64,000 bases of DNA, taken from contig NC_087390.1 in NCBI RefSeq assembly GCF_963675165.1, forward strand, positions 6,354,319-6,418,318. Direction: 5' to 3'. The translations under genes and the position numbers were made by a program. Shown here in pieces: positions 2,159-21,900 of the stretch. The stretch's first letter is position 1. Each line of letters starts with the position of its first letter. The notes beneath the pieces were generated by a model. The model ran no database searches and was not told where the DNA came from. It worked only from the letters and a program-made list of their open reading frames with translations. The stretch is from Halichondria panicea (lineage: Eukaryota > Porifera > Demospongiae > Suberitida > Halichondriidae).

Positions 2159-3014
2159 TTAAATCAGTAGGTTTCGAGTATAAGGACACTTGGTGACAGT
2201 CAGTGTGCAGACCGCATTATTACTTGGCGAGAATGAGCTGTGACTACCACCACTGGGATAGGTAACTTCACAGGAGCAGTAAATATTGTTTCCACTCTTC
2301 CAGTATGAGGTGGATGTGAAGTAGCTGGTAAAGGAAAAATCACACAAAATGCTGGATGTGAAGTACTGTGTGTCCTGTATGGGATTGATATGGTTATGAG
2401 CTGTACACTTGATCATGTGATTATAGTGTATTAGGGCTTGGACTTACTCCACGATTGATGGACACACCACTAGTGCTGCAAGAGTGATAACTAGTGGTTG
2501 ATGATGTTGACATCGTACAAGTCCTGGTCTCCTGGATACAGCCCTCATAGAGGTTGATTGTGCGGAGACGGTCCAAATCTTGACGAAGGTTGTTCTGTGC
2601 CAAAGTTGAGGTCTGTATTAAGCTCTGCATGCTGGCTATCTGGGATTCTTTAGCAGTGTTAGTTTCCTCCAGCTGTTGAATCCTCAACAACAACAGATTA
2701 TCTCCGGCAGTGCTTGCACTTGATTCAGTGTTGTCTCCACCACTGGCCAGAGGACTGTATATGATGACAGCCACCAGAGACACAACTAGAGCAATGACCA
2801 GAAATACAGTCATCAGAGCAATCACAACACATTTCCACCTCTTGATTTTAGTGGAGATTTGACCAGCTAGTTGGGATTTGTCCTCAACTTCAATGCGGTT
2901 AGGGCGATTGATTGTCATGTAATGAGATTGTTGTTCCTGCATCTCGACGTGCTCGTACAACTCTTGTTCTTTGTTTGGCTGGTGACTTGTTTTAGCAGCT
3001 GGTTGACGACTCAT
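2159..3014 (-). CDS. Type II membrane receptor-like protein, array copy R1 (subtype 1, intact)
   Basis: Two exons, 3014-2448 and 2374-2159, joined at a phase-0 GTAAGT/AG intron, encode 260 aa. The start at 3014 (MSRQP) is chosen because all copies begin there. In order: a cytoplasmic tail of about 70 residues with YEHV and YMTI eight residues apart; a basic KIKRWK stop; one hydrophobic span (about residues 73-95); a coiled-coil stalk with leucine/isoleucine heptads (IQQLEE, LRQDLDRLR); then a C-terminal domain with eight cysteines, starting EGCIQETRTC and ending KCPYT. There is no signal peptide, so it is a type II protein. I recognise no named ectodomain; C-type lectin and TNF signatures are absent. 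A role as a surface receptor is inferred from the architecture. Confidence 0.82.
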
Positions 3015-4344
3015 CTTCTCAACTAATTGGGTCACATCACATATAATGTGTATTTATAGCCTTTATGGTGCAGCAATGTGCGTACATGTCTAGAGCATAA
3101 TTATCATATTGATAGGGGGAGGTAAACAGTTCCTGTTTGTTGCTATGATAATAGTGAAAGCAAACGCCCACATTATACAGTAAACATGCACACGTAGACT
3201 ACATTAAGCACAAAACAGATGGACTGTATCTGCCACCAAGTCACAATAAGTTACATTATATAGTTCATATTCTGCTATTGTGCAGCACTGTATCTACTGT
3301 TACAGTATAGTAATTTCTGTGCAATTGTGTGTGTGCCTGAGTGGATCTGCAAAATATCAATCGACATTGAAAGTTGGGTACTGGATGGCTGTGCTTATAG
3401 CTACCTATAATTATATCTACATTGGAACTTGACTAGGCGTTCTTTCAGATAGCGAACGGCTGGTCTCGAGGCTATACCAGCTACTGAGGGAGGGAGGTTA
3501 TCATTATTCATTATTGTGACATCACTTCCTGTAAAACCCCATTTCCTGTTAATTAAAAACACAACAACACAAACTATGGCGGCGGCCGTCCCTGACGGGA
3601 GGTCGGGTTGCAAGCTCATCTGGGATTTGTCCTGCTGCATTATGTAACACTGCTATGAATATTGTTATTCTCAAGTGGGTGTTAACCGACTTGATGACGT
3701 GTAGACCATAGCCTACACTGCATGCGGTTTCGCAACTAGATGCAAACGGAAGTGTAACCAAGCACGTGAAAAGTGCTTCAATCTGATAGGGCGCCACTAT
3801 AGTGGCGCTAGAACAAATCCCAGATAGGCTTGCAACCCGACATCCCGTTAGGGACGGCCGGGTTGCAAGCCTAGCTATGGCACAAATTGAATCACTATCT
3901 ACTGTCTAAGTACACAGAAACAACCTTCCACTATAGCAGACCTTCTTGATTCCGGACAGAGGACAATTAAGCTTTGTGCTCCCAAAACTGACCAACTTGG
4001 CTCTCTGTGCAAAACTGCCTCTTATAATTATAAAAGACGAACAGGAAACCACATTATGCCCAACAATTATGCCATGCCATATTGGGCATAAAATAATAGT
4101 ACTATAATTATACAACATAATTATTAATAGAAATAAGCAAAAAACTGTATGCAGGTAATTGGGTATGTGTTTGGAGTTCAGTGCCAGAGTGGTAAATTAT
4201 TCTCATAAACTCATGCACATAATAATTTATAGTAAAGGGTAACATCACAATCTATGCAGCTATAATTATCTATTGAACTACTTGAACTACACACAATGTC
4301 ATAAGAGAATTCAGTTTCAGCAAAATACGTATTATCAAGTCAGT
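3015..4344. other. Spacer between array copies R1 and R2
   Basis: No convincing gene. It holds the upstream flank of R1. The stretch 3291-3400 (with GTGTGTGCCTGAGTGG) recurs after the R6 relic at about 13380-13490, so it is part of the duplicated unit. It also contains the foldback element at 3585-3860 and the AT-rich 3' flank of R2. Confidence 0.6.
3585..3860. mobile_element. Foldback/MITE-like element
   Basis: Two inverted arms of about 48 bp enclose about 180 bp. The left arm, 3587-3633, runs from GGCCGTCCCTGACGGG to the word TCTGGGATTTGT. The right arm, 3812-3860, is its imperfect reverse complement, from ACAAATCCCAGATAGG to CGTTAGGGACGGCC. No coding capacity; non-autonomous element by structure. 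Confidence 0.65.
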
Positions 4345-5345
4345 TCAGTTGAGGAGGTTTTGAGTGTAAGGACACTTGTGATAGTCAGTGTGCAGACGGC
4401 AATACTTCCCAAGGCTACTGAGCCATGACCATGACCGTCGGGACACAGTCACAGCGAATATAATATTGTTTCCACTCTTGTAGTACGAGGTTGACACAAA
4501 GAAGCCGGTATTGGACAGATCACCATAATATACTGGATGTGAAGTACTCTGTGTCCTGCATGCATGTGGGATTGATACCACCCTCAATGTATGTAGATAT
4601 ATAATTATGATAAATACACTTACACCAGGATTGATGGTTATATCTCCAGTTTGACAGCCGATCCAGTAAGGATTAATTGGAATTGGCAACGTACAAGTCC
4701 TGGTCTCCTGGATACAGCCCTCATAGAGGTTAACTGTGCGGAGACGGTCCAAATCTTGACGAAGGTTGTTCTGTACCAAGCTCAGGTTTTGCATTGAGTT
4801 CTGCACAATAAGAAACTGTGAGGAGACAGTATCATCATAGTCCGATTGCCGCTGAAATTGTACTTATACCCTGCATCTCATTTGGTACAGTGGATCTCCT
4901 TTTATTATGACGTACACTTTGGGAAACAAAATTTTGGCCATCATAATTATATATAGAGGCCTTTATTGAGAGGTTCTTTTGCACACACTGTGACTGTGTT
5001 CATTTGGGACCTGGGTGGCTGGCCTTAATATCACAGTTGGCCTTCAGGAGTGGCCAGTAGGAGGGTTCCATGCACTTACAATAGCAAATCCCTGTAGTCA
5101 CCACCACTCTTGCAAATTTGATTTTGTTATAACCATAAGTACATACATATAACTATAGCAATCTACTACACTAGAAGAGCTGTATGATGACTGCCACCAG
5201 AGACACAACTAGAGTACAGGCCAGAAATAAAGCATTAGTGCAATCACAACAACATTCCTCCTCTTGGTTTTAATGGAGATTTGACCGAGTATATGTAGTT
5301 GAGAACTGTCCTCAACGGGGTTGGGGTGAATTGTGGTCATGTCCT
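4345..5345 (-). pseudogene. Receptor array copy R2 (subtype 2), broken
   Basis: The tail/membrane-span coding region survives as a decayed fragment at about 5162-5345. The stalk with the subtype 2 motif PIPINPYWIGC is at 4610-4830 and the C-terminal exon at 4345-4560. About 290 bp of unrelated sequence separates the span from the stalk. The C-terminal exon carries an extra base at the conserved LCDL position and further shifts that destroy the CxC and VC motifs, although the KCPYT end is still readable. It is a relic and not an expressed receptor. The segment 4641-5310 was duplicated to make R3. Confidence 0.85.
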
Positions 5346-5584
5346 GAGATTGTTCTAGGAATCAATTTTCTTCTTTCTTGAGGTCCTGGTAAGCCACATA
5401 ATACAATAAATAATAACAACAATAGATACATGTAAATAAGTCTTTTCTTCTCAGTGACTTTATATAGATAAGCTAACTTTAATATAAAATTCATTATAGA
5501 AACTAATATAACACTCTAATACTTTTGAGCGAAAGCAAAAACACGGCGAGAGGCATTAGCACAGCGCCAGCTTGAACACTAGTA

Positions 5585-6340
5585 TATCCAGTTTGACAGC
5601 CGATCCAATAAGGATTAAATGGAATTGGCAACGTACAAGTCCTGGTCTCCTGGATACAGCCCTCATAGAGGTTGACTGTGCGGAGACGGTCCAAATCTTG
5701 ACGAAGGTTGTTCTGTACCAAGCTCAGGTTTTTCACTGAGTTCTGCACAATAAGGAACTGTGAGGAGACAGTATCATTATAGTCCGATTGCTGCTGAAAT
5801 CTTATACCCTGCATCTCATTTGGTACAGTGGATCTCCTTTTATTATGACGTACACTTTGGGAAACAAAATTTTGGCCATCATAATTATATATAGAGGCCT
5901 TTATTGAGAGGTTCTTTTGCACACACTGTGACTGTGTTCATTTGGGACCTGGGTGGCTGGCCTTAATATCACAGTTGGCCTTCAGGAGTGGCCGGTAGGA
6001 GGGTTCCATGCACTTACAGTAGCAAATCCCTGTAGTCACCACCACTCTTGCAAATTTGATTTTGTTATAACCATAAGTACATACATATAACTATAGCAAT
6101 CTACTAGATCTACACTAGAAGAGCTGTATGATGACTGCCACCAGAGACACAACTAGAGTACAGGCCAGAAATAAAGCATTAGTGCAATCACAACAACATT
6201 CCTCCTCTTGGTTTTAATGGAGATTTGACCGAGTATGTAGTTGAGAACTGTCCTCAACATGGTTTGGGTGAATGGTTGTCGAGATTGTTATTCCTGCATG
6301 TCCATACAGTTGTTCATACACCTCTTCTTCTTTGCTTGGC
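5585..6340 (-). pseudogene. Receptor array copy R3 (subtype 2), broken
   Basis: Near-identical tandem copy of part of R2, offset by about 945 bp. The stalk part is at 5585-5800, followed by the same inserted block, and the membrane-span and tail coding remnants are at about 6119-6340. It is truncated just after GCQTG, so the C-terminal exon is missing altogether. It has a small local difference from R2 (GATCTA inserted near 6107). The close similarity of non-coding and coding parts alike points to a recent duplication. Confidence 0.85.
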
Positions 6341-6519
6341 TGTCCTTTCACTGTGTGACTTATCATGTTTAGAAGCTTGGCTATATATACTTATCTCCTC
6401 AACTGATGTGTGTAATATAAATCATGCAAATCATAATTATTTATATAGCATACTAGCAATTATTGCATGGACCACCTTGTATGTAAAATCACAGTATATA
6501 ATTATTATAACAAACAGTA

Positions 6520-6676
6520 TACATCTGCCATGAAGTCATAAATTTAAGTTTATAGTTGTCTCATGTGATGTCTCACTGCGTATTACGTACTGAGAACGAG
6601 TGACTGTTAGTCTGTTAGTTTACCAGACTCTATACCTTGTTAGATCTGAAATTTCTCAGCTAAAATATTCAGTGCC
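6520..6676. pseudogene. Junction of HPRT 3' end relic and calaxin last-exon relic
   Basis: The stretch 6540-6585 resembles the sequence around the HPRT stop codon at 16690-16725 (GTTGTC...GTGATGTC...CTGC). It runs straight into a degenerate plus-strand copy of the calaxin last exon (6591-6672; GAGAACGAGTGACTGTT, TTTACCAGACTCTA, TTCTCAGCTAAAATATTC). The calaxin copy lacks its first half and has lost its reading frame. This marks the boundary between two duplicated array units. Confidence 0.7.
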
Positions 6677-6947
6677 TAACACTTAATGAGAATGCAGATA
6701 TTGTATCTTAATGCCAATTAAAGCAAGTCAATTAGTGCAGTCAATACTGGGTGTTGGGTATGTGTGTGGGTGATCATGACTCTGCAGTAAACTTCAACAA
6801 CGCATCATATACTCCAAAAATCAGGTATACAAGCAATTAATTAGGGTGACAGACAACATTATATACACCAGCGTATACACGTAACTACTCATGCATTGTT
6901 TCACAATCTCAGTTTAGTACATTTCAGCAATAATAGTTGAAGTCAGT

Positions 6948-7761
6948 TTAGTTGAGGAGGTTTTTAGTATAAGGACACTTGGTGACAGTCAGTGTGCAGA
7001 CAGAATCATAGACAGAGAATGAGCTGTGACCATCACTACTGGGAGCAGTAACTTTACAGAAGCAGTAAATATTATTTCCACTCTTGTAGTATGTGGATGA
7101 TGTGAAGTAGCTGGTATAGGAAAAATCACACACTATGCTGGATGTGAAGTACTGTGTGTCCTGTATGGGATTGATATGGTTATGATCATGTGATTATAGT
7201 GTATTAGAGGCTTGGACTTACTCCAGGATTGATGGTCACACTACCAGTGTTACAAGTGCGATAAGTACTCGTTGATGATGTTGACATCGTACAAGTCCCG
7301 GTCTCCTGGATACAGCCCTCATAGAGGTTGATTGTGCGGAGACGGTCCAAATCTTGACGAATGTTGTTCTGTACCAAAGTTGAGGTCTGTATTAAGTTCT
7401 GCATGCTGGCTATCTGGGATTCTTTAACAGTGTTTGTTTCCTCCAACTGTTGAATCCTCGACAATAGATTCCCAGTGTCTCCATCGCTGATCAGAGGACT
7501 GTACATGATGACAGCCACCAGAGACACAACTAGAACAATGACCAGAAATACAGCAATTAGTGCAATCACGACACATTTCCACCTCTTGATTTTAGTGGAG
7601 ATTTGACCGGCTAGTTGGGATTTGGCCTCAACTTTAGGGCGATTGATTGTCATGTAATGAGATTGTTGTTCTTGCATCTCAACGTGCTCGTACAAATCTT
7701 GTTCTTTGTTTGGCTGTGGTTTGACCTGGTGACTTGTTTTAGGAGCTAGTTGACGACTCAT
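6948..7761 (-). CDS. Type II membrane receptor-like protein, array copy R4 (subtype 1, intact)
   Basis: Exons 7761-7222 and 7160-6948 encode 250 aa with the same phase-0 intron as R1. It starts MSRQLAPK. The tail has YEHV and YMTI eight residues apart. The membrane span (CVVIALIAVFLVIVLVV) is followed by a shorter stalk than in R8, still containing RQDLDRLR. The ectodomain keeps all eight cysteines: EGC, GTC, RTC, VCDF, YCFC, VCTL and KCPYT. It differs from R1 mainly in the loop after the CxC motif and in the serine/threonine-rich segment before the intron, so variation is concentrated outside the membrane. R1 and R4 are the only copies with both exons fully open. Confidence 0.82.
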
Positions 7762-8718
7762 CTTCTTAATAGTTTCTCATCACATGGTTTTTGTAAATTG
7801 ATGAGGCCTCTATACAATAATTATTTTAATGATATTCATTACACAAACAAAATTACATCATGCAGTAATTGAACTTTTGGTTTCTTAATAAGGGGTGTGG
7901 CTCATTAATTTAGACCACACCCCGAACATGATGAATACTGAACTTCTTTGGGAAGCCATGAGGGGGCTGATGAGAAACTGCTAATCTACTTTGCCTGGCC
8001 TAATTGAGTCACATCACATAATTATTGTAGCCTTGAATCCATGCCGATTAAAACACGTATTTTAATCAGCGTGGATTTAAGGCTACATCACATACTGTGT
8101 TTTTATGGTACAACACTAATGTGCATGTCTATATTATAGCATTGATAATTAATGATAGGGAGGTGAACAGTTTCCGTTTGTTGTTTTAATTACAGTAGAT
8201 AATGAAAGCAAACCACATTTAATACAGTAAACACACATGCAATAAGCATAAAACAGATGGACTTCATCTGCCATCAAGTTGCAGTAAGTACTCATGGTAC
8301 TTAAAGTGCGAATTTCAATCGACATTGAAGGTGGGTGGGTGGCTGTGCTTAGCTATCTATAACATTACCGAGTCACATTACATAATAATATACAGTAGCT
8401 CATTGTAGAGAGTATAATTATGCGTTGTAGTTGAGTGGGTGCATGGTGGTTCTGCAGGACATTCACAACATAAATTATATGAACTGAGTCATGATTATGC
8501 AGGGTAACAAAGTATAATCTATATATATCTACATGGAGTTGAGTGCATGTGTATACAGTGGTTTTGCAGGACGTCATATAATGAACTCACGCACATAGTA
8601 AAGGGTAACGAACTAAATCTATCTATCCAGCTATAATTATACACACATTCGATTGTTGAACTACACACAATGTCACAAGACAATTCAGTTTCAGTAAAAT
8701 ACTTATTATTATGTCAGT
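7762..8718. other. Spacer between array copies R4 and R5
   Basis: No gene seen. It contains a short perfect-looking hairpin at about 8032-8087 (TAGCCTTGAATCCATG paired with its complement near CGTGGATTTAAGGCTA). It also holds flank sequence shared with the R1 upstream region (8150-8345, including CAATCGACATTGAAGG). Confidence 0.55.
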
Positions 8719-10120
8719 TCAGTTGTCAATGAGAAGGTTTTGAGTATAAGGACACTTGGTGACAATCAGTGTGCAGACTGCATTACTTCCCGAGGCTACT
8801 GAGCCGTGACTATCACCATTGGGAGGAGCAGTAATATCACAGTCACAGCAAATACTGTTTCCACTCTTGTAGTACGAGGTTGACACAAAGAAGCCAGTAT
8901 TGGACAGATCACACAATATACTGGATGTAAAGTACTCTGTGTCCTGCATGCATGGGATTGATACCCTCAATGTATAATTAAAGCTAAGTATAATTATATG
9001 TATATATTATTATGATATAAATACACTTACACCAGGATTGATGGTTATATCTCCAGTATGACAGCCGATCCAATAAGGATTAATTGGAATTGGCAACGTA
9101 AAAGTCCTGGTCTCCTGGATACAGCCCTCATAGAGGTTGACTGTGCGGAGACGATCCAAATCTTGACGAAGGTTGTTCTGGATCAAAGTTGAGTTCTGTA
9201 TTAAGTTCTGCATGCTGGCTATCTGGGAGGAATGTGATGCCAACATCATTGTGATAGTGTCTTCCCTAGAACTATCTCCGGCAGTGCTGGTATTTGATTC
9301 AGTGTTTCCATGCAGATCCACCGCTGACCAGAGGACTGTATATGATGACTGCCACCAGACACACAACTAGAGCACAGGCTAGAAATACAGCCACCATTAG
9401 TGAAATCACACAAAACTTCTCTCTCTTAGTTTTAGTGGAGATTTTACCGACTAGTTGAGAACTGTCCTCAACGCAATTAGGGTAAATGCACTGTTAAAAA
9501 CGGTGTGTTGAATAGCACACTACTTTTCACAGGTAATTTTTAGTGTGTGTTAATGTGCACACCTGTGCATATCTGTGTTCACTGACACTCAATTGTGTGT
9601 AATAGAACACTCAACTGCACAGTGTGTAACTGAACACTCCTGACATTCACCTATGGACAAAATTAGTTTAAGTACAAGGTGCTAATGTTAAAGAATTTTA
9701 CTCAATGACATCGCTCTAAAATCTCATTGGTTAGTTTGTAGTTTTCTCACTTCACTGCCACATGTTTCTCTTTGAAACTCAAGAGAACCAGCTTGGAGAA
9801 GTTGGAGCTAGCTGAAGCAACAACTTGATCTAGTCTAGATATATAATGATATAATAGTATCTACCAGTTCTCCAAGGTCTTTTGGTCAAAGAGAGATCAA
9901 TCCAGCACCCAAAGACGCGAGGACACGAGTGTATCAAAGCAAGACAGCTGTACATATAGCCAGGAGTACTCAGTCCTGATAATAGCAGCCATGTAAGTCA
10001 TTTGTTATACACTATAGAGGTTTATCTTAATCTTTTTACACAGGGAGCTCGTCTACATGTCTATGCCAGTGAATAAGAACCAAGAACAATGTCAATTCTT
10101 GATGTGAGTATATATACATG

Positions 10121-10593
10121 TACCGTATTCACCCGAATTACCGGGACACAATTTTAAAAATAATTATATGGCTTGCAGTGTCCCTTGAAGAAAAATTACG
10201 TTAAAGTCGAAGTGTCCCTTGTATTAGGGTGTCCCGTAGTAATTAGAACGAATATTCCCACATTTAAGGTACGTACGCGGCCTCGATTCTAGTACATGTA
10301 GAATCCAGGAGTTTCTAAGAGTTTTGAGTCTCTACCGAGCTGTGTTGAGAATGACTAGACTATCTAGATCCGTTCCTTTGCCTACCCCCTCTTGCTGATT
10401 ATTGTGTCTAGGAGCTTTCTCCACTAAGCAACGAGCAGCCCCTCCCCTTCTAGTCACGCTCCCGCATTACGCATGCTCTTTTTTGTTCTAATTACGTCTA
10501 AAAATATTTACATTTCCTGTTGTTCCTTAATATAGAGTGAAAAAATTACCTAAGTCCGAATTGTCCCTTAGAATAGTTCGGGTGAATACGGTA
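10121..10593. mobile_element. MITE with TACCGTAT-type ends, nested in the transposon
   Basis: The 17-bp ends TACCGTATTCACCCGAA at 10121 and TTCGGGTGAATACGGTA at 10593 are perfect inverted repeats that start and end with TA. This is compatible with a TA target site (mariner-like). Internal sequence repeats the word GTCCCTT. No coding region. Confidence 0.8.
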
Positions 10594-10787
10594 TACACGT
10601 ACTGAATATTTCTCTGTCTAATTATTATTATGATGCCTATAAATGTATTCATCCAGGCTGAAGAATGTGGAGACAAACATGAAGAGCCCATGACAAGCAT
10701 GGTATCCGTCAGACTGCTTTAGCAAAGAAAATTCTTCAATTATGTGACTTTGTACAAAACTTGGTATAATTATACTGCTTAGGTTTC

Positions 10788-11733
10788 ACCAAGGGCGTAT
10801 ACAGAGAAGAGGGCATGCAACTCGCCCAATTCTCAGAATCATCCGACTTCGTATTGAGCTATTTTTAGAACTGCCCACAAAACGCCCACGCGTAATCTTT
10901 GACCGCACAAGGTAAATCAAAGTCTTTTTTATATCTGTGCTAGCTAGCTAGCTCGATTGCAGCATAGTAAAACTAGTTCTCAGCAGCAGTATGGCTCGTA
11001 CTAGCAGTGTCAAAGGCAAACCATCCAACAGTTGCAACTCCAAGAAGATGAAACCTAGGTACAATAAACCTGTCTTCCTGAGTCTCTGGTACTTCTTAAC
11101 AATGCGCCCAGCACTTAACTTCCCGCTCGAAGGGGTTGTCTTGGACCTGGCTGGACTAGGACTGGTCATGACACTTCTCTAAAATAATACTCCACTGTTA
11201 GGCCAAGCAAAGTCAATTTGTAGTTTCTCAGGCTATTATTCCTAAAATAGCAAGCGGATTGAGGCATTTGATAAATATTAATGATAATGATATTCATAGA
11301 ATTTTAATTGAAAACACACCCCTAACTTCCTCAATAAGCGGAAGTGCATAATTTTCACTTATTAATTTTAGTCATAATTATATTCATGACCAAAAAACCA
11401 TACAAGTTTATCCTTTTCTTTTAGTGCCTTTAATTTGAGGTCACGTGATATTTAACTTTTTTGTAAAGCTGCCAATTTCCAAGCGCGAGGGCCTGAGAAA
11501 CTACAAATTGACTTTGCATGGCCTTAGCTAGCTAGCTAGCAAAGGCTAGGCAGCTCTGATGTACACGCCCATAATTATAACTCCGTAAACAACACCGCCC
11601 ACTTGTTCACGTCCGTATACTGGATTCTATTTTTAGCATATCCGGTCTCTGATACGAAGTCGGATGAGTACGTAGGGTACATAGTGAGTTGCATGCCCTC
11701 TTCTCTGTATACGCCCTTGGTTTCACTATATAT
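10788..11733. repeat. Nested foldbacks inside the transposon
   Basis: The outer arms are 10788-10856 (ACCAAGGGCGTATACAGAGA...) and 11651-11733, which is its reverse complement, ending TCTGTATACGCCCTTGGT. A separate inner pair is at 11200-11235 (AGGCCAAGCAAAGTCAATTT) and 11488-11525. Between them are GCTAGCTAGC runs. Short reading frames on both strands at 10948-11182 have no recognisable similarity and are probably chance. Confidence 0.7.
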
Positions 11734-12539
11734 GTACGTTACATTGTTTTTTTCTTGTGTTTTATCAACCATTATACATACGTGTACTCTAATGTTTCAT
11801 CACTGCTAATATTTTTATTGATCAGATGATTGTGTAATTGTTAAATGCATGCCATGCATATAGGCACGCTTTGGCATGTAAGGCTAGCACACTAAGGGTG
11901 TTGCTTTACATTCATTACGTGCAGTAGAGCACACCACAGCAGTGTCCCTGAACACTCTTGAAATGTGTTAAACAGCACTCTTCATAGGTGTGTTGTGTAG
12001 CACCCTAAAGTAGGTAAAACTTAAACAGTCATCCCAACGCCCCAAAAGTGTGTTAATCAACACATCATTTTTAACAGTGTGGTGGTCATGTCCTGAGATT
12101 GTTCTTCTTCCTGCATCTCCAGTTGTTCATACACCTCTTCTTGTTTCCTCGGCTCTGTTTTAACCGCGGGGCGACTTGTTTTAGGATTTGGTTGACTATA
12201 ATTATATATATATATATATATACTTGAGTATATAAAGCTATAGAGTCCCCCATCACATATTTATAGCATGCATGGTAGAGCAAATGCATGTAGATGAATG
12301 CATAACAGGACGGCCTTGTGGCAGGTGGATAACAGTTGTTTTGATCAAAGCAAAGAGATATAGTCTGGACTCAGTTTAGAGAGCTACAATACACAAAATA
12401 CACACCACAATAATACACATGTAAGCACAAGCATTATTATGTCTTCACAATAAACACCACCGATATACTTATGATAAACAAGTATATACGGACATGCCAA
12501 TAAAGTCATCAAGCTATAAGTTGTCTCATGCATGTGATG

Positions 12540-12630
12540 TCAATGCACGCTGCATATACTTTTTTGGCCAGTTTCGTTAATAACACACACACATGGCTGC
12601 ATAATTATAAGAGAGAAACCATGGTAACAC
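12540..12630 (-). pseudogene. Relic of the HPRT last exon
   Basis: This stretch matches the true HPRT terminal exon and flanks at 16710-16800: CGCTGCATA, GGCCAGTTTCGTTAATAACA and downstream GAGAGAAACCATGGTAAC. The coding frame is disrupted around the stop codon and the Lys-Lys region. It shows that the duplicated array unit once extended into HPRT. Confidence 0.85.
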
Positions 12631-12806
12631 AGCCACAAAACACTATTGCAATGATGAAAAACTTTATTACTGTAAACGGTGTCACTTTAAACATGTGTCA
12701 CTACTTACATTGAAATCTCAGAGTTAAGAATTTGTTGTAAGTTGTTGCAAATCGTGACGACGATATAATGTAATAGCATTTACGACATCTTTCTGTTTCT
12801 CTGCAG

Positions 12807-12950
12807 GATCATGACAATGACTTAAAAGTGTCATTTGAGGATTTTAAGAAGTCTATTGAGAATGAGCGACTGTTGATTGAAGCATTTGGACCTTGTTCAC
12901 CAGACTCTACCTTGTTAGAGGACTTCTCAGCTAAAATATGCAGTATTAAT
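12807..12950 (+). pseudogene. Copy of the calaxin last exon
   Basis: The acceptor CTGCAG is kept, and the frame is open through the motif LLIEAFGPC up to SAKI. After that the original stop is lost and the frame runs on. A Ser-to-Leu change and a Leu-to-Ser change relative to the genuine exon are visible. No upstream calaxin exons accompany it, so it cannot make calaxin on its own. Confidence 0.88.
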
Positions 12951-13211
12951 TGTTATGACTATATAATTATATGCATACAAAGGATTGTGTATGCATGTGT
13001 TGAATGAGTGGGTGGCATTGCAGTATCTACAACATTATGATGCATGGTATCAAGAGTTCATTATGGTGGTATGCAGCAGCAGCAGCAATCAGACAACAAC
13101 AAATTAAATGTACACTAAATAATTATTAAGCTAGGGTAACAGATAAACATCATGTAGCTACTCATTCACACAATTCAGTTCAGTTTCAGCAAAATACGTT
13201 ATAGTCAGTTT

Positions 13212-13360
13212 AGCTCAGAAGGTTTTGAGTATAAGGACACTTGGTGACAGTCAGTGTATATACAGACTAGCCTGCCGATTATTTAATCGGCCTCGAGGCT
13301 ATGTGCAGACAGGATAATAGACAGCGAATGTGCTGTGACCAGTACTAATAGGAGAAGTAA
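13212..13360 (-). pseudogene. Receptor array relic R6 (subtype 1, C-terminal exon only)
   Basis: The end of the C-terminal exon is recognisable (GTATAAGGACACTTGGTGACAG in plus orientation). It is interrupted at about 13256-13302 by about 45 bp containing a small palindrome (GCCGATTATTTAATCGGC). The rest of the gene is deleted: by 13375 the sequence continues into flank that lies upstream of R1. Confidence 0.75.
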
Positions 13361-13808
13361 GTTATACTGTATTATAGTGTACAGTAATTTCTGTGCAATT
13401 GTGTGTGTGCCTGAGTGGATCTGCAAAATAATAATTAAAATTAATCGACATTGAAAGTTAGGTCACAGTATACTGGGTGGCTGTGCTTATAGCTAGATCT
13501 ACCTATATATATCAAAGCTACAACATCACTTTAACTTATGTAAATTTTATACAGTATAGCTCATTGTAAACAAGCAAAACTGCATGGTATGCAGGTAATT
13601 GGGTATATGTTTGAGTTGAGTGGGTGGTGGTTCTGCAGGACATCTCATATAAATTATAATGTGAACTCATGCACGCACATAGTAAAGGTAACGAACTATT
13701 AACATCATGCACAATCTATGCAGCTATAATATATATATATTGTTGAACTACACACAATGTCACAAGACAATTTAGTTTCAGCAAAATACTTATTATAATT
13801 ATGTCAGT

Positions 13809-14033
13809 TCAGTTGAGGAGGTTTTGAGTATAAGGACACTTGGTGACAATCAGTGTGCAGACCACATTACTTCCCGAGTCGTGACCATCACCATTGGGAG
13901 GAGCAGTAATATCACAGTCACAGTGAATACTGTTTCCATGCACTCTTGTAGTATGAGGTTGACACAAAGAAGCCGGTATGGGACAGATCACACAATATAC
14001 TGGATGTGAAGTAATCTGTGTCCTGTATGGATT
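13809..14033 (-). pseudogene. Receptor array relic R7 (subtype 2, C-terminal exon)
   Basis: This is a C-terminal exon of subtype 2. It still encodes IHCDCDITAPPNGDGH and the KCPYTQNLLN end, but has a short deletion after GDGH, an inserted ATGC before the CDC motif, and changes near the acceptor. No stalk or span exon is found upstream. Sequence from 14041 on is foldback DNA. Confidence 0.8.
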
Positions 14034-14086
14034 GATACCCTATAGCTCAATGTCATTATAAAACGTGTATGTATTAGTTATTGCCC

Positions 14087-14194
14087 AGCCAGCAACATGC
14101 CATATATTGCACTGGAGCAATATAATGCCCTCGGGCCGCAGGCCCCGAGGGCATTATAATTATCATCCAGTGCAATATATGGCATGTTGCACGA
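14087..14194. repeat. Perfect-looking double foldback
   Basis: The outer arms CAACATGCCATATATTGCAC and its complement enclose inner arms ATAATGCCCTCGGG and CCCGAGGGCATTAT around a GC-rich loop. The word TCCAGTGCAATATATGG recurs at about 14478 and, inverted, at about 14515-14540, so this element family has several copies here. Confidence 0.8.
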
Positions 14195-14633
14195 GGGCGC
14201 CTGCAATAACTAACTTGTTGCCCAATGACGTTAAACTCGTCTGACTGGTCATATAAATCGTAATAAAAGACATGTGTTTTGAAGGAATTTAGTGTATTCA
14301 TTAGTTTTGCTGAATTCCATAGTAAATTTTTTAGGTTTTCTTCACACTAGTAGTTGTAAAGGTAGTAGCCTATAAAAGGGACCAACTGAGTATTGGGTAG
14401 GATGGTGGGGCATAAGTCCCAACTGGATATCTCTTAAAGAAATCTACTGCATTTACACACAGTGCAAGTGCATATAATCCAGTGCAATATATGGTAGCCA
14501 TCCATGGCAGTTATGCAACATGCCATATACTGAGCACTGGATTGCTTTGATCTGCCCACTCACTGTGCAACAAATATATATATATACGTTATAGATGTGC
14601 ATTCATTTGCGACATCTTTCTGTTTCTCTACAG

Positions 14634-14786
14634 GATCATGACAATGTCTCGAAAGTGTCACTGGAGGATTTCAAGAAGTCTATTGAGAATGAGCGACTGT
14701 TGATTGAAGCATTTGGACCTTGTTTACCAGACTCCACCTTGTTAGAGGACTTCTCAGCTAAAATATTCATCCGATCATTATTATGA
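14634..14786 (+). pseudogene. Copy of the calaxin last exon
   Basis: The best preserved of the copied exons: acceptor CTACAG, open frame through [12 protein letters not shown] and FSAKIF, then a new ending IRSLL and TGA. One Asp-to-Val change sits in the degenerate EF loop. It stands alone between array units; no other calaxin exon is near it. Confidence 0.88.
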
Positions 14787-14993
14787 GTGCTTTGCACTAT
14801 GTGCAATATCTAGCTATTATACAACATGTACAGAACTGTGCAAAATGTACACAATAACTTATAGCTAGAAGATAACGTTATAAACACCATTTAGAGCAGC
14901 TATACTGCCTCAGTTAATTGTTTCAGCAAAATATAGGTAGTATTAAAACAGTTCAGTTCAGGAGGTTTCGAGTATAAGGACACTTGGTGACAG

Positions 14994-15877
14994 TCAGTGT
15001 GCAGATGCCATTACTTGGCGAGAATGAGCTGTGACCAGTACTACTGGATAGGTAACTTGACAGTAGCAACGGATATTGTTTCCACTCTTGTAGTATGTCG
15101 ATGACGTGAAGTGGCCGGTATAGGTTTGAAGATCACACAATATGCTGGATGTAAAGTACTGTGTGTCCTGTATGGGATTGATATGGTTATGGGCTGTACA
15201 CTTGATCATGTGATTATAGTGTACTAGAGGCTTGGACTTACTCCAGGAGTGATGGTCACACTAGTAGTGCCACAAGTGGCATAAGTACTCGTTGATGATG
15301 TTGGCATCGTGCAAGTCCTAGTCTGCTGGATACAGCCATCATAGAGGTTGATTGTGCGGAGACGGTCCAAATCTTGACGAAGGTTGTTCTGGATCAAAGT
15401 TGATGTCTGTATTAAGTTCTGCATGCTGGCTATCTGGGAAGAGTACAATGCTGATGATTTAACAGTGTTCGCCACTGTGACATTCAATCCCTGAATTGCT
15501 TGCACTCTTCCTTCCAGCTGCTGTATCCTCAACAACATATTATCTCCGGCAGTGCTGGCACTTGATTCAGTGTTGTCTCCACCGCTGACCAGAGGACTGT
15601 ATATGATGACTGCCACCAGAGACACAACTAGAGCAATGACCAGCAATACAGCAATCAGTGCAATCACAACAAATTTCCTCCTCTTGGTTTTAGTGGAGAT
15701 TTGACCGACTTGTTGCGATTGGGAGTTGTCCTCAACATCATCACGGTTAGAGTGAATGGTTGTCATATATCGAGGTTGTTGTTCATCGTGCATTTCGACT
15801 TCTTCGTACAGCTCTTCTTGTTTATTTGGCTGTTCTCTGTTGTGGTGAATTATTTTAGGAGCAGGTTGACGACTCAT
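14994..15877 (-). CDS. Type II membrane receptor-like protein, array copy R8 (subtype 1, frameshifted C-terminus)
   Basis: The first exon 15877-15242 (212 codons) is fully open: MSRQPAPK start, YEEV tail motif, span FVVIALIAVLLVIALVV, and the longest stalk of the family (extra block with GRVQAIQGL). The second exon starts at 15167. It has lost one base in the TYP.. loop (about 15035-15050) relative to R1, so the frame ends at a TGA at 14994-14996 without the VC and KCPYT motifs; the homologous DNA continues to about 14944. The second tail motif is YMTT instead of YMTI. The gene may make a truncated protein or be newly inactivated. If the base loss is an assembly error, it would be a third intact copy. 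Confidence 0.75.
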
Positions 15878-16186
15878 TATTATCTCTCAACTAACTTAGC
15901 ATGAGCCACATCACCTTTTTATAATAATTAACCGGATGAGTGGCGGAGGGGAGGGATGCCATACATGTACGAGTATGTAAACAGATACTGATTTACTAGA
16001 TAGTGAAAATGAAAGTGTTAGTGATAAGGTGTTAAGCATGCAGCGCTTCAAGGTGGTGAAGGTATGATAGATTCATTAAAGATACAAATAGCCATGCAGA
16101 ATTAAATAACTGTTTTGTTTAGATACTGCATAAGAATATAAACAGATGCTGCATAGGAATATAAACATCGTTCTGTTTCTCTGCAG

Positions 16187-16300
16187 GACAATAACTCAAA
16201 AGTGTCACTGGAGGATATTAAGAAATCTATTGAGAATGAGCGACTGTTGATTGAAGCGTTTGGACCTTGTTTACCATGCAGACTGTTAGTCAGCCAATAG
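16187..16300 (+). pseudogene. Degenerate copy of the calaxin last exon
   Basis: The acceptor CTGCAG and the frame from DNNSKVSLED through EAFGPCLP are kept, but the first codons (DHD) are missing and the 3' half is replaced after CLP. It is the copy nearest the true HPRT terminal exon. Confidence 0.85.
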
Positions 16301-16715
16301 CTAGTGGCCATTATCAGTGCTTGTACAACACTGTATTGCTGTGTGTTTGAGTGCTATAATTATGTAGAAGATTGTTGTATATCAAATGTGTATGAGTGGG
16401 TGAGCTCTGCAGTAGTATAATAATATACAACCATTATAATATATTATAGGTATATTACATAATGCTTGTGTTATTTTGTATGGATAGTAAAAGCAATTGT
16501 GAGAATAAAGCTTACAGGTGAAGGTAAAATGATGATAGAACTCCATTAAACTATAATTATTATAGACCACTCTTGTCAACAAAGTACACACTACAATAAC
16601 AATCAGTATTACATACACAATGTATTGGGCGGCATTATTACTATGAAGTACATAAAATGTTTATTAGTTGTCATAATTATAAAGCTAAAATATAGTTGTC
16701 ATAATACGAGTGATG

Positions 16716-18913: not shown

Positions 18914-21900
18914 ATGAAGATCCCATTCACAAGGACCAACATACGCATCAAGGGGACCACCAAATGGCAGGCAAGTGTGCGCATGCTCAGTAGAGAGAGC
19001 TTCCTAAAGCAAGTGCCCCTTTATTCATCATAAAATTGACTACACACACCCACCACCCACCCACACACACACACACAGATCGGGGTTGCTATAGTAATAG
19101 GGTTCGTGGGGGGTTACCTGCTCCTGCCGTACGTGTTTCCCGTCCCGCCCCCTTCCTACGGTGTGAGGAGTGTAGGTGTACGGGATCGTCATCACCCATT
19201 CGGAGCCCCCGCCAAACTCTCGCCAGGTGGGCAAGACCAGAAGAAGTGGGCGGATATGCTCAAGAGCAGAGTAAGTGGCCAGTCAGGGATAATGGTAGTC
19301 ATAGTGATGTGCCTAGCAAGTGATTAATCCTCGATCACACGGATTTGCGTCTTTTATGTTGTGGTTATTGTTGTCTAGAGGTGGTTAGTACCAACCACCA
19401 CCACTGACCAGTGTGGGCACATCACTGTGTATGTATATAGCTATAGAGCTACTGTTTAACCCAGCATAGTATATAATAGAATCTTAAGTGCAATTCCACA
19501 GCAAATTAATATTCACTGTTTCTTCCTCCTCCCTCCTCAGGTTAGGGACAGAGCGGTACATTTCGACTCTACAGGACGTCACTTCATAGTGGAGGGTAAG
19601 GAGAAGCTGATACTGAGTGGAGCAGTGCACTACTTCAGAGTGGTACCAGCATATTGGGAAGACAGGCTGCTACGTCTCAAGGCCGCCGGTCTTAACACTG
19701 TGGAAACGTACGTACATGATAGTTGGTGTATGTGAATGTTGTTTAAGAGTAGTACTACAGCCTATAATTTTAAAAATGCTTTGTGTAAAAAGCTTGTACA
19801 CTACAAGATAGATAAAGTAAATCTTGTACTTTTGTACTTTTAATAATAATTACATAATTAATCCAGCCCACCCCCCCCTCAGATATGTACCGTGGAACAT
19901 GCACGAGCCCCTCCCTGGTCAGTTTGACTTCACTGGTATACTGGACCTGGGCGAGTATATCCGCACAGCCCAACAAGTCGGGCTGCACGTCATAGTGCGT
20001 CCTGGTCCGTACATCTGTGCAGAGTGGGAGATGGGAGGACTGCCAGCGTGAGTGGGTGGTGTGGGCGTGTGTGTGGAGTGGGTGTTATCGTTTAGTGTAA
20101 AAAAAACGTTGCCTAAAAACTCTAATTGTGTTTTATAATTATTCACGATAGTGTATTGTACAGAATTGTATCAACCCCCCACCCCCCCACCCCCTCCTTC
20201 AGATGGCTGCTGCACTACAGAGACATGCAAGTGAGGACCACACACAGGGAGTACATGAATGCAGTGGAGCAGTACTTTAGACAACTGTTTGAGGTGCTCA
20301 TACCGCTCCAGTCGGCCTATGGTGGACCAATCATAGCCTTCCAACTCGAGAATGAATACGGAGCAGTCTCAGTGGATGATGATATGGGCAAAGACTACAT
20401 GACCTTCTTATTTCAGGTACGCACGTGCGTCGTGTGATCCAGTGGAGGGGGTGTGGTCAGCATCTTAGAGTGGGCGTAACTTATATTTGCATGGATGGTA
20501 CAATTTCAATGGTTCTGAAAGCTTAAAAGTGAGCCCTTTTAGAAATCATTTCAGGTCTTTTTTGACGGAAAAAATTTTGGAGCCATGTGTGAGCTGATCA
20601 TGTGATCTGAAAGAGCTCGTTTTAAGCTTTCAGAAAATCAGAATACTACTGAAATAGGACCTAAAAAATTCTATTTATCGATATAAACGTAACTAGTGTG
20701 ATGATAGTGCATGTACAGACAATGATTGTATTATCACCACCTGTGTAGATGCTACGAGAGATGAATGTGGTTGAGCTGCTGTTTGTGTCTGATGGAGCCA
20801 TCTACTTTAACTCCACCCTCTCCCGTCTCCCCATGGACGAGGTCCTCATCACTGTCAACTTCATGAATGAGAGGGGGGCCCTCGACACACTCAACAAGAT
20901 ACAGGTGGGCGTGGCCAGAGTAATAGCAATCGTGATATACACTGAGCATAACAATAGCCATAACTTTAGTTCTGTTGGTCCAATAACGTTAATTTTATGA
21001 TTTTCTGAAAGCTTAGAGATGGTTTTTCAGATGGTGTGTTAAATCAAAAGTCTATTTTGGGCCTGTTTTGTTACAAAATACCATAAGCTAGTATTTTTCC
21101 GAAAACAGGAAATTATGTCCTGTTCCAAAATTGGGATTTGAGCATACCATCTGAATGGGCTCCTTCTAAGCGTTTAGAAAATCTTAAATTTAATTGTTAA
21201 TTGTCCCTGTATATAGCCGTCCAAGCCTGCTATGATCATGGAGTGGTGGTCTGGTTGGTTTGATCACTGGCAGGAGGATCACCTGACTCGTAACCAGGGG
21301 GCGGAGCTAATAGCGGAGAGACTCACTGACTACATCACACGAGGCGTCTCCGTCAACTTCTACATGTTCCATGGTGAGCATCGTGCCTAGATACATGTAC
21401 CATATTACTAGAGTGTTTTGCGAGCATCAAACATATGCGAACTTTGCGATGGTTGATCAATTAGCAACAATAAAGTCGCAAAACCTAAATTATTACTAGT
21501 AAATACACACGATCCTTGCCAGAATGCAATAGTTAGATCGCAAACGGTCAAATTTTCGGCTGATTTGGCTCATTCGCAAAGGTTTTTCACCCGCAAAATA
21601 TTCTAGTAATACGGTAACTATATATAGATACCCTAGGCTAACTGCAAGTACCACTGGATACTATCTGTTGGCACAACGTTTCTATTCAACTGATGAGTTA
21701 GCCTCTCACTAAAGTGCTATAGCTATTTGGTAGCGGCCTTCCTCTTCCCTGCCGCCTGGAATTGAGACTGTTTTAGTTGTACCCAAGGTGAGGTAGCTTA
21801 GTAGCAAGTAGTTTTCATTCCAGTGGGTATATAAAACTGTCCGCTACATTGGAACTTATGGCAACATAAACCATCCTTGGCCTCGGGGCTTCTTGTGTCG

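Follow-up and report, generated by a model that had tools for sequence, protein, structure and literature searches.

A stretch of 64,000 nucleotides from the sponge Halichondria panicea (the window; C14:6354319-6418318, where C14 is contig NC_087390.1) carries, at 2159-15877 and entirely on the minus strand, copies of a single type of receptor gene. These copies belong to a tandem array of genes with a shared architecture: a tail with tyrosine motifs that resemble an immunoreceptor tyrosine-based activation motif (ITAM), a single membrane span, a stalk with a heptad pattern, and a head that contains eight cysteines and is split by a phase-0 intron. The order of the parts, the motif content of the tails, the constraint on the tail core, the tandem expansion, and the presence in the same genome of candidate proteins to read the tails were all observed. 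Judging from sequence comparison, we propose that the products are type II receptors of an immune or uptake kind that may use Src-Shark signalling, a reading to which we give a probability of a little under one half (about 0.46). The main alternative to it is an ordinary endocytic receptor.

The array and its copies in the window

The array spans C14:6325787-6370195 (44 kb); the window holds its end, and about 28 kb more lies to the left. Thirteen start points were modelled, and seven of them give intact spliced proteins of 250-321 amino acids, with introns of 61-85 bp that are all in phase 0. Two of the intact copies, R1 and R4, are inside the window and five are outside it. In all seven, the order is tail, then span, then head, which is a type II layout. 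Their alignment shows that all eight head cysteines are invariant, along with further head blocks (e.g., CTLTVTKCPYT), and that the stalk varies in length. The tail core is near-invariant, with the consensus NKEQ(E/D)LYEHVEMQEQxSHYMTINRP. The heptad score of the stalk was reached by 10 of 2000 shuffles for R1 and 8 of 2000 for R4, and by none of 2000 for a 277-residue stalk from a second cluster of the family; the stalk at C14:5916948 scored weakly (99 of 2000), leaving three of the four stalks tested with support.

Within the window, the two intact genes, R1 (2159-3014) and R4 (6948-7761), each have two exons, separated by a phase-0 intron of 73 bp in R1 and 61 bp in R4. Their products are 260 and 250 amino acids long, and the tail of each reads YEHV-EMQEQQSH-YMTI, a spacing of x8. 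In R8 (14959-15877), exon 1 is open, exon 2 is frame-broken, and the second tail motif reads YMTT. The other copies (R2, R3, R5, R6 and R7) are relics. The features, in window positions, are as follows.

2448-3014, minus strand: R1 exon 1, intact; tail, span, heptad stalk and head cysteines 1-3; open from MSRQ to the donor GTAAGT
2910-2957, minus strand: R1 ITAM-like core YEHV-x8-YMTI; ratio of nonsynonymous to synonymous divergence (dN/dS) 0.09 over the surrounding 25 codons in the seven intact copies
2375-2447, minus strand: R1 phase-0 intron, 73 bp
2159-2374, minus strand: R1 exon 2; five head cysteines and the stop codon
4351-5292, minus strand: R2 relic; exon 2 remnant at 4351-4521, head and stalk at 4618-4863, span remnant at 5224-5292
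5551-6236, minus strand: R3 relic; head and stalk at 5551-5832, span remnant at 6168-6236
7222-7761, minus strand: R4 exon 1, intact
7645-7692, minus strand: R4 ITAM-like core YEHV-x8-YMTI
7161-7221, minus strand: R4 phase-0 intron, 61 bp
6948-7160, minus strand: R4 exon 2 with the stop codon
8722-9460, minus strand: R5, broken, span-to-head part; frame break in the stalk, head cysteine 2 replaced by F
9489-12079, no strand assigned: inserted element between R5 and R6; 33-nt inverted ends, dispersed copies of the first 213 bases
12084-12173, minus strand: R6, displaced tail VYEQLEMQEEEQSQDMT, probably of the R5 gene
13216-13266, minus strand: R7, first exon-2 fragment
13815-14022, minus strand: R7, second exon-2 fragment, frame broken
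15242-15877, minus strand: R8 exon 1, open; tail YEEV...YMTT
14959-15167, minus strand: R8 exon 2, frame broken; two frames, protein end altered

A tail remnant bearing YEQL adjoins the far end of R3 (read by eye only). R5 and R6 appear to be parts of a single gene that was split by the 2.6-kb element at 9489-12079, whose inverted ends are 88% complementary and read CACTG...CAGTG. Near-identical copies of the first 213 bases of the element are dispersed in the genome, and because two of them, on contig C8, are 100% identical, we conclude that the element moved recently. An earlier note, made from the letters of the window, had counted eight gene or relic copies of one architecture. The observation is confirmed, with the correction that R5 and R6 seem to belong to a single gene; R7 consists of two exon-2 fragments. 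What the note described is part of a larger whole, given the further 28 kb of array and the relatives at many other loci. Its YEHV-x8-YMTI tail was reread in both intact genes with the x8 spacing confirmed, and the phase-0 intron that it placed in the head region was measured in all seven intact copies. The last exon of an EF-hand gene (about 850-1870) also recurs in the window, in three copies (12769-12945, 14596-14772 and 16143-16319) that adjoin receptor copies; they are 63-92% identical and were apparently carried along by the tandem duplications.

The head and the wider family

The array forms a single branch within a larger family. Whole-genome protein searches (131.5 Mb, 39 contigs), with R1, one second-cluster member and one second-cluster head as queries, found relatives at C14:5.83-5.97, 6.12, 6.28, 6.30-6.31, 4.49-4.57 and 3.06 Mb, at C9:2.316-2.327 Mb, and at C4:4.33 Mb, with relics also on C5. 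In the stretches of C14, C9 and C4 that were fetched and examined, an exon-1 profile gave 43 matches at 42 places, 39 of these matches having at least three cysteines, and an exon-2 profile gave 55 matches at 47 places, 34 of them with at least five cysteines in at least 60 amino acids; the numbers of places are lower bounds, and the exon-2 matches include split relics. The family spreads over several clusters and has grown by tandem duplication, in keeping with the earlier suggestion of a clustered family. Intact copies are likewise found beyond the window, so that their absence elsewhere, which the earlier note had named as a ground for refutation, does not apply: besides the five in the array, members in other clusters are open in both exons as read by eye.

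Across this family the head keeps a common plan. All eight cysteines are invariant in the 12 members chosen as complete, even though nine of the eleven wider-family members compared are only 25-35% identical to R1. The head is about 102-117 residues long, and the position of the intron, which divides the cysteines into three plus five, does not change among the diverse members that were read by eye. In one member (C14:5832031-5833010), a start that resembles a signal peptide replaces the tyrosine tail, and the product is possibly secreted.

The head resembles no family that we can name, as the earlier note had said: Pfam and PDB sequence searches gave no convincing match. In Pfam scans of single members and of the alignment, every match to the head was below the curated cut-off, including one to an EGF model that scored 13.7 bits in a divergent member, where the cut-off is 27. 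Comparison at the sequence level found no C-type lectin domain in the head in Pfam or among PDB sequences, and Pfam gave no match to SRCR, collagen, Ig-like or Sushi domains in family members and none over the cut-off to EGF. The array head had no relative among bacterial, archaeal and viral contigs in a scan that reaches close relatives only, nor did the R1 exon-1 frame among phage records (tblastn). Two other leads were set aside. The sole match in profile searches of the head against PDB sequences was a pilus protein (E 0.41), which was rejected. An AlphaFold2 model of the R5 region, showing a helix followed by a beta-rich head, was too weak to use (mean pLDDT [predicted local distance difference test] 42.6); its input ran on through the in-frame intron, TAA being taken for a residue, and its alignment was made of window sequences only.

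Tyrosine-tailed, clustered recognition receptors are already known as a kind. Among the open-access papers listed on sponge receptors with an ITAM, a type II topology or a part in allorecognition, none describes this family in its title or the opening of its abstract, and the head, a type II layout with such a head, and the occurrence in a sponge appear, within that coverage, not to have been described.

Tail motifs and selection

Tails were counted in frames with both a start and a membrane span (10 in the array and 21 elsewhere; 18 frames were dropped), using the strict ITAM pattern YxxL/I-x(6-12)-YxxL/I and a loose form that allows V. In the array, 9 of the 10 tails, R1 and R4 included, contain a loose pair, and one, from a broken copy at 6346927, contains a strict pair (YEQL-x8-YMTI). 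A broken relic at C14:3.06 Mb also meets the strict consensus (YQQL-x8-YMTI). Outside the array, NPxY occurs in 12 of the 21 tails, some form of YxxL/I/V in 17, a loose pair in four and a strict pair in two. Both strict tails belong to C9 members (YNHL-x7-YSRL and YNHL-x10-YSQL), each beside NPxY. The second cluster has NPxY in 7 of 11 tails and a pair in 2, a typical tail being NPCYEDYTLPVYEEVQL, with YEEI in some. Most members read have a tail with tyrosine motifs. Since the tails differ in type from member to member, the head and stalk form the constant unit of the family and the tail is the part that varies.

How much weight can a paired tail bear? In shuffle tests, which are post hoc because the motif was chosen beforehand, shuffling the R1 tail 20,000 times produced the loose pattern in 0.4% of cases. 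For the 6346927 tail, the same number of shuffles gave the strict pattern in 0.08% and the loose in 0.4%, and for the C14:3.06 Mb tail in 0.67% and 2.3%. The four paired tails outside the array reached the loose pattern in 1.3-5.9% of 10,000 shuffles, and therefore a lone paired tail counts for little as evidence; for the strict pattern, the two C9 tails that carry it gave 1.8% and 2.3%. One further strict match, the frame at 5956291, was dropped, having neither a start nor a membrane span. Constraint within the array is a stronger argument than these chance figures.

That constraint was estimated by the Nei-Gojobori method over the 21 pairs of the seven intact array copies, with bootstrap ranges. 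The dN/dS of the tail core is 0.09 (0-0.41), compared with 0.54 (0.24-1.51) for the whole tail, 0.35 for the membrane span, 0.53 for the stalk and 0.86 (0.54-1.27) for the head. Without the invariant cysteine columns, the head rises to 1.13 (0.78-1.77), a post hoc measure with an upward bias. The earlier note spoke of a fast-evolving family, and within the array the head does change faster than the tail core. This does not carry over to the second cluster, where seven of the 13 genes gave 0.48 (0.18-1.25) for the first part of the tail, 0.91 for the next part and 0.42-0.63 for the head. The contrast between tail and head is thus not general.

Tail constraint bears directly on the endocytic alternative, in which YxxV/I and NPxY would be clathrin-adaptor sorting signals on scavenger receptors for food or debris, with no SH2 signalling. 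YxxV/I and NPxY are known as plain uptake signals, and YEHV, YMTI, YEEV/I and NPxY would all serve; outside the array, moreover, NPxY (12/21) and some form of YxxL/I/V (17/21) are found more often than an ITAM-spaced pair (4/21). What makes this explanation rather unlikely is that the core, its acidic flanks and the fixed x8 spacing are kept in all seven intact copies at a dN/dS of 0.09, conservation that would exceed the needs of a four-residue sorting signal.

Part of the tail similarity probably has another source. Synonymous divergence (pS) is lower in the tail (0.078) than in the head (0.215), and the distances between copies in the tail show no correlation with those in the head (rho 0.04, over 21 non-independent pairs). 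Because of this low tail pS and lack of correlation, gene conversion has likely homogenised the 5' part of the array genes, on top of the constraint on the core. Taken to the extreme, conversion alone would account for the conserved tails of an expansion that is specific to this lineage, is decaying and no longer has a function. Broken copies are indeed the majority in the window, six of the 13 modelled array start points give no intact protein, and the low tail divergence and unlinked distances fit as well. Yet conversion alone should not push dN/dS down to 0.09, seven copies keep their splice sites, frame and eight cysteines, and the cysteines are invariant in the 12 diverse members chosen; we consider decay very unlikely.

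Candidate signalling partners, proposed mechanism and similar known systems

The genome holds 71 SH2 matches at E <=0.001, and among them is a Syk-family tandem-SH2 kinase. At C9:5254961-5259199, SH2, ankyrin, SH2 and tyrosine kinase matches follow in order (read piece by piece), and the closest PDB entries to the kinase part are one chain named EGFR, then ZAP-70 and SYK. By this domain order, the locus is a predicted Shark-type tandem-SH2 kinase gene. Ankyrin repeats between two SH2 domains are described for HTK16 and Shark in one paper (PMC9486129), and Syk kinases were earlier reported from sponges and Hydra (PMC2820527, PMC9486129). Elsewhere, at C3:8404573-8406287, two SH2 matches are followed on the same strand by a tyrosine phosphatase match, and this gene is likely an SHP-type phosphatase.

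The latter locus is one of the points in favor of inhibitory or paired receptors, in which SHYMTI-like immunoreceptor tyrosine-based inhibitory motifs (ITIMs) would recruit an SHP-type phosphatase and the different tails would make activating and inhibitory members. SxYxxI fits an ITIM, and one head is common to tails of different types. In the first motif, ELYEHV, position -2 does not hold the residue expected of an ITIM, and the x8 spacing is that of an ITAM, so that we hold this explanation to be quite doubtful.

Kinase and phosphatase genes are also expanded elsewhere in the genome. Tandem tyrosine-kinase genes occupy C10:1701723-1940221, mostly as open frames of about 560-640 amino acids with the kinase part in one frame, and a very large tandem expansion of protein-tyrosine-phosphatase domains at C4:0.04-2.6 Mb makes up the bulk of the phosphatase matches listed.

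If the Src-Shark proposal is right, the stalk would form a dimer or trimer and the heads would recognize a range of ligands from microbes, dead cells or self. Receptor clustering would then let a Src-family kinase phosphorylate the tail tyrosines, and the YEHV-x8-YMTI pair, or the YxxL-x7/x10-YxxL pair of the C9 members, could dock a tandem-SH2 kinase of the Shark/Syk kind. Once docked, the Shark-like kinase might drive engulfment or some other effector or defence response. NPxY and single YEEV/I tails may feed the same phosphotyrosine and uptake machinery; YEEI is the optimum of Src-family SH2 domains. The working analogy is with Draper-Src-Shark, or with type II C-type lectin receptors, joined to an unrelated head.

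Several observations weigh against this proposal. Every intact array copy, R1 and R4 among them, has V in the first motif and misses the strict consensus, and the two array-type tails that satisfy it (6346927 and C14:3.06 Mb) are both from broken copies. NPxY is commoner than an ITAM-like pair, both in the second cluster (7/11 versus 2/11) and outside the array as a whole (12/21 versus 4/21), where some of the four paired tails may be due to chance, given the 1.3-5.9% reached by shuffling. At C14:4.49 Mb the tails are short and free of tyrosine, and the C14:5.83 Mb member begins with a signal-peptide-like sequence. The low divergence of the array tails is partly homogenisation, and the tail and head of the second cluster are about equally constrained. 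ITAM function, an immune or allorecognition role, and expression should be regarded as putative properties of the family.

Several characterized systems come close to this one. The Draper/CED-1/MEGF10 engulfment receptors, with Src42A and Shark in Drosophila, are approached by the Shark-architecture kinase in this genome and by the two C9 members that combine a strict pair with NPxY. Draper, however, is a type I protein with EGF-like repeats, whereas the proteins of the sponge family are type II, have eight cysteines in the head and show no EGF match that passes the cut-off. The type II C-type lectin receptors Dectin-1, CLEC-2 and DNGR-1, whose tails are ITAM-like, share the topology, an N-terminal tyrosine tail, a stalk, a disulfide-rich C-terminal head and clustered genes, but the sponge head has no C-type lectin match and the array tail has two tyrosines instead of half an ITAM. 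Class A scavenger receptors are also type II, with a coiled-coil stalk, a cysteine-rich C-terminal head and a role in uptake; the sponge family differs in having no SRCR or collagen match and in its prominent tyrosine motifs. In Draper, the ITAM works with Src42A and Shark while NPxY has a separate function (PMC4503800).

Allorecognition systems provide a last comparison, and with it the possibility that the sponge genes encode receptors or ligands for distinguishing an animal's own tissue from foreign tissue. Alr of Hydractinia and fuhc of Botryllus are clustered, diverse receptors of colonial animals, although they carry Ig-like, EGF or Sushi domains, none of which was matched in the sponge family. 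One review (PMC12065747) describes candidate allorecognition genes of Hydractinia on which ITAM and ITIM motifs were identified, reports signalling parts expressed in Botryllus ampullae, and states that neither fester nor uncle fester encodes a known signalling domain. A tandem array whose heads change fast, with tail distances that do not follow head distances, would suit such a role. Heads of the seven second-cluster genes, by contrast, are under ordinary constraint, and neither the word receptor nor ITAM occurs in the available text of an Amphimedon grafting study (PMC5450542). We judge allorecognition to be highly improbable.

It is possible to combine these elements into a bolder proposal: a new-fold head on interchangeable tails (ITAM-like, ITIM-like, NPxY, tyrosine-free and secreted), with rapid turnover of array heads, serving a paired immune or allorecognition system that would work through Src, Shark and SHP and predate bilaterians. 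We think this unlikely. Even so, the family offers concrete genes for testing whether ITAM-type signalling served recognition before bilaterians, with one clustered receptor family, a conserved two-tyrosine tail, and a Shark-type kinase and likely SHP-type phosphatase in the same genome. It also brings a disulfide-rich head that matched nothing in the libraries searched, and the joining of one head to several tail types.

Other loci

Downstream of an HPRT-like gene in the window, frames at about 19540-20430 on the plus strand resemble a family 35 beta-galactosidase; both assignments were made by eye, and the single frame of the HPRT-like gene that was tried gave no Pfam match. On another contig, C2:656915-667884 contains a silicatein-like gene cluster, with three CGASYAF matches in 11 kb of DNA and none in a reversed control. 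The first of its genes to be read has papain-family and cathepsin-propeptide matches, and the cluster supports a siliceous sponge as the likely source of the DNA. Its kind is recognized by the CGAS site, in which serine replaces the catalytic cysteine and which we take to be the mark of a silicatein.

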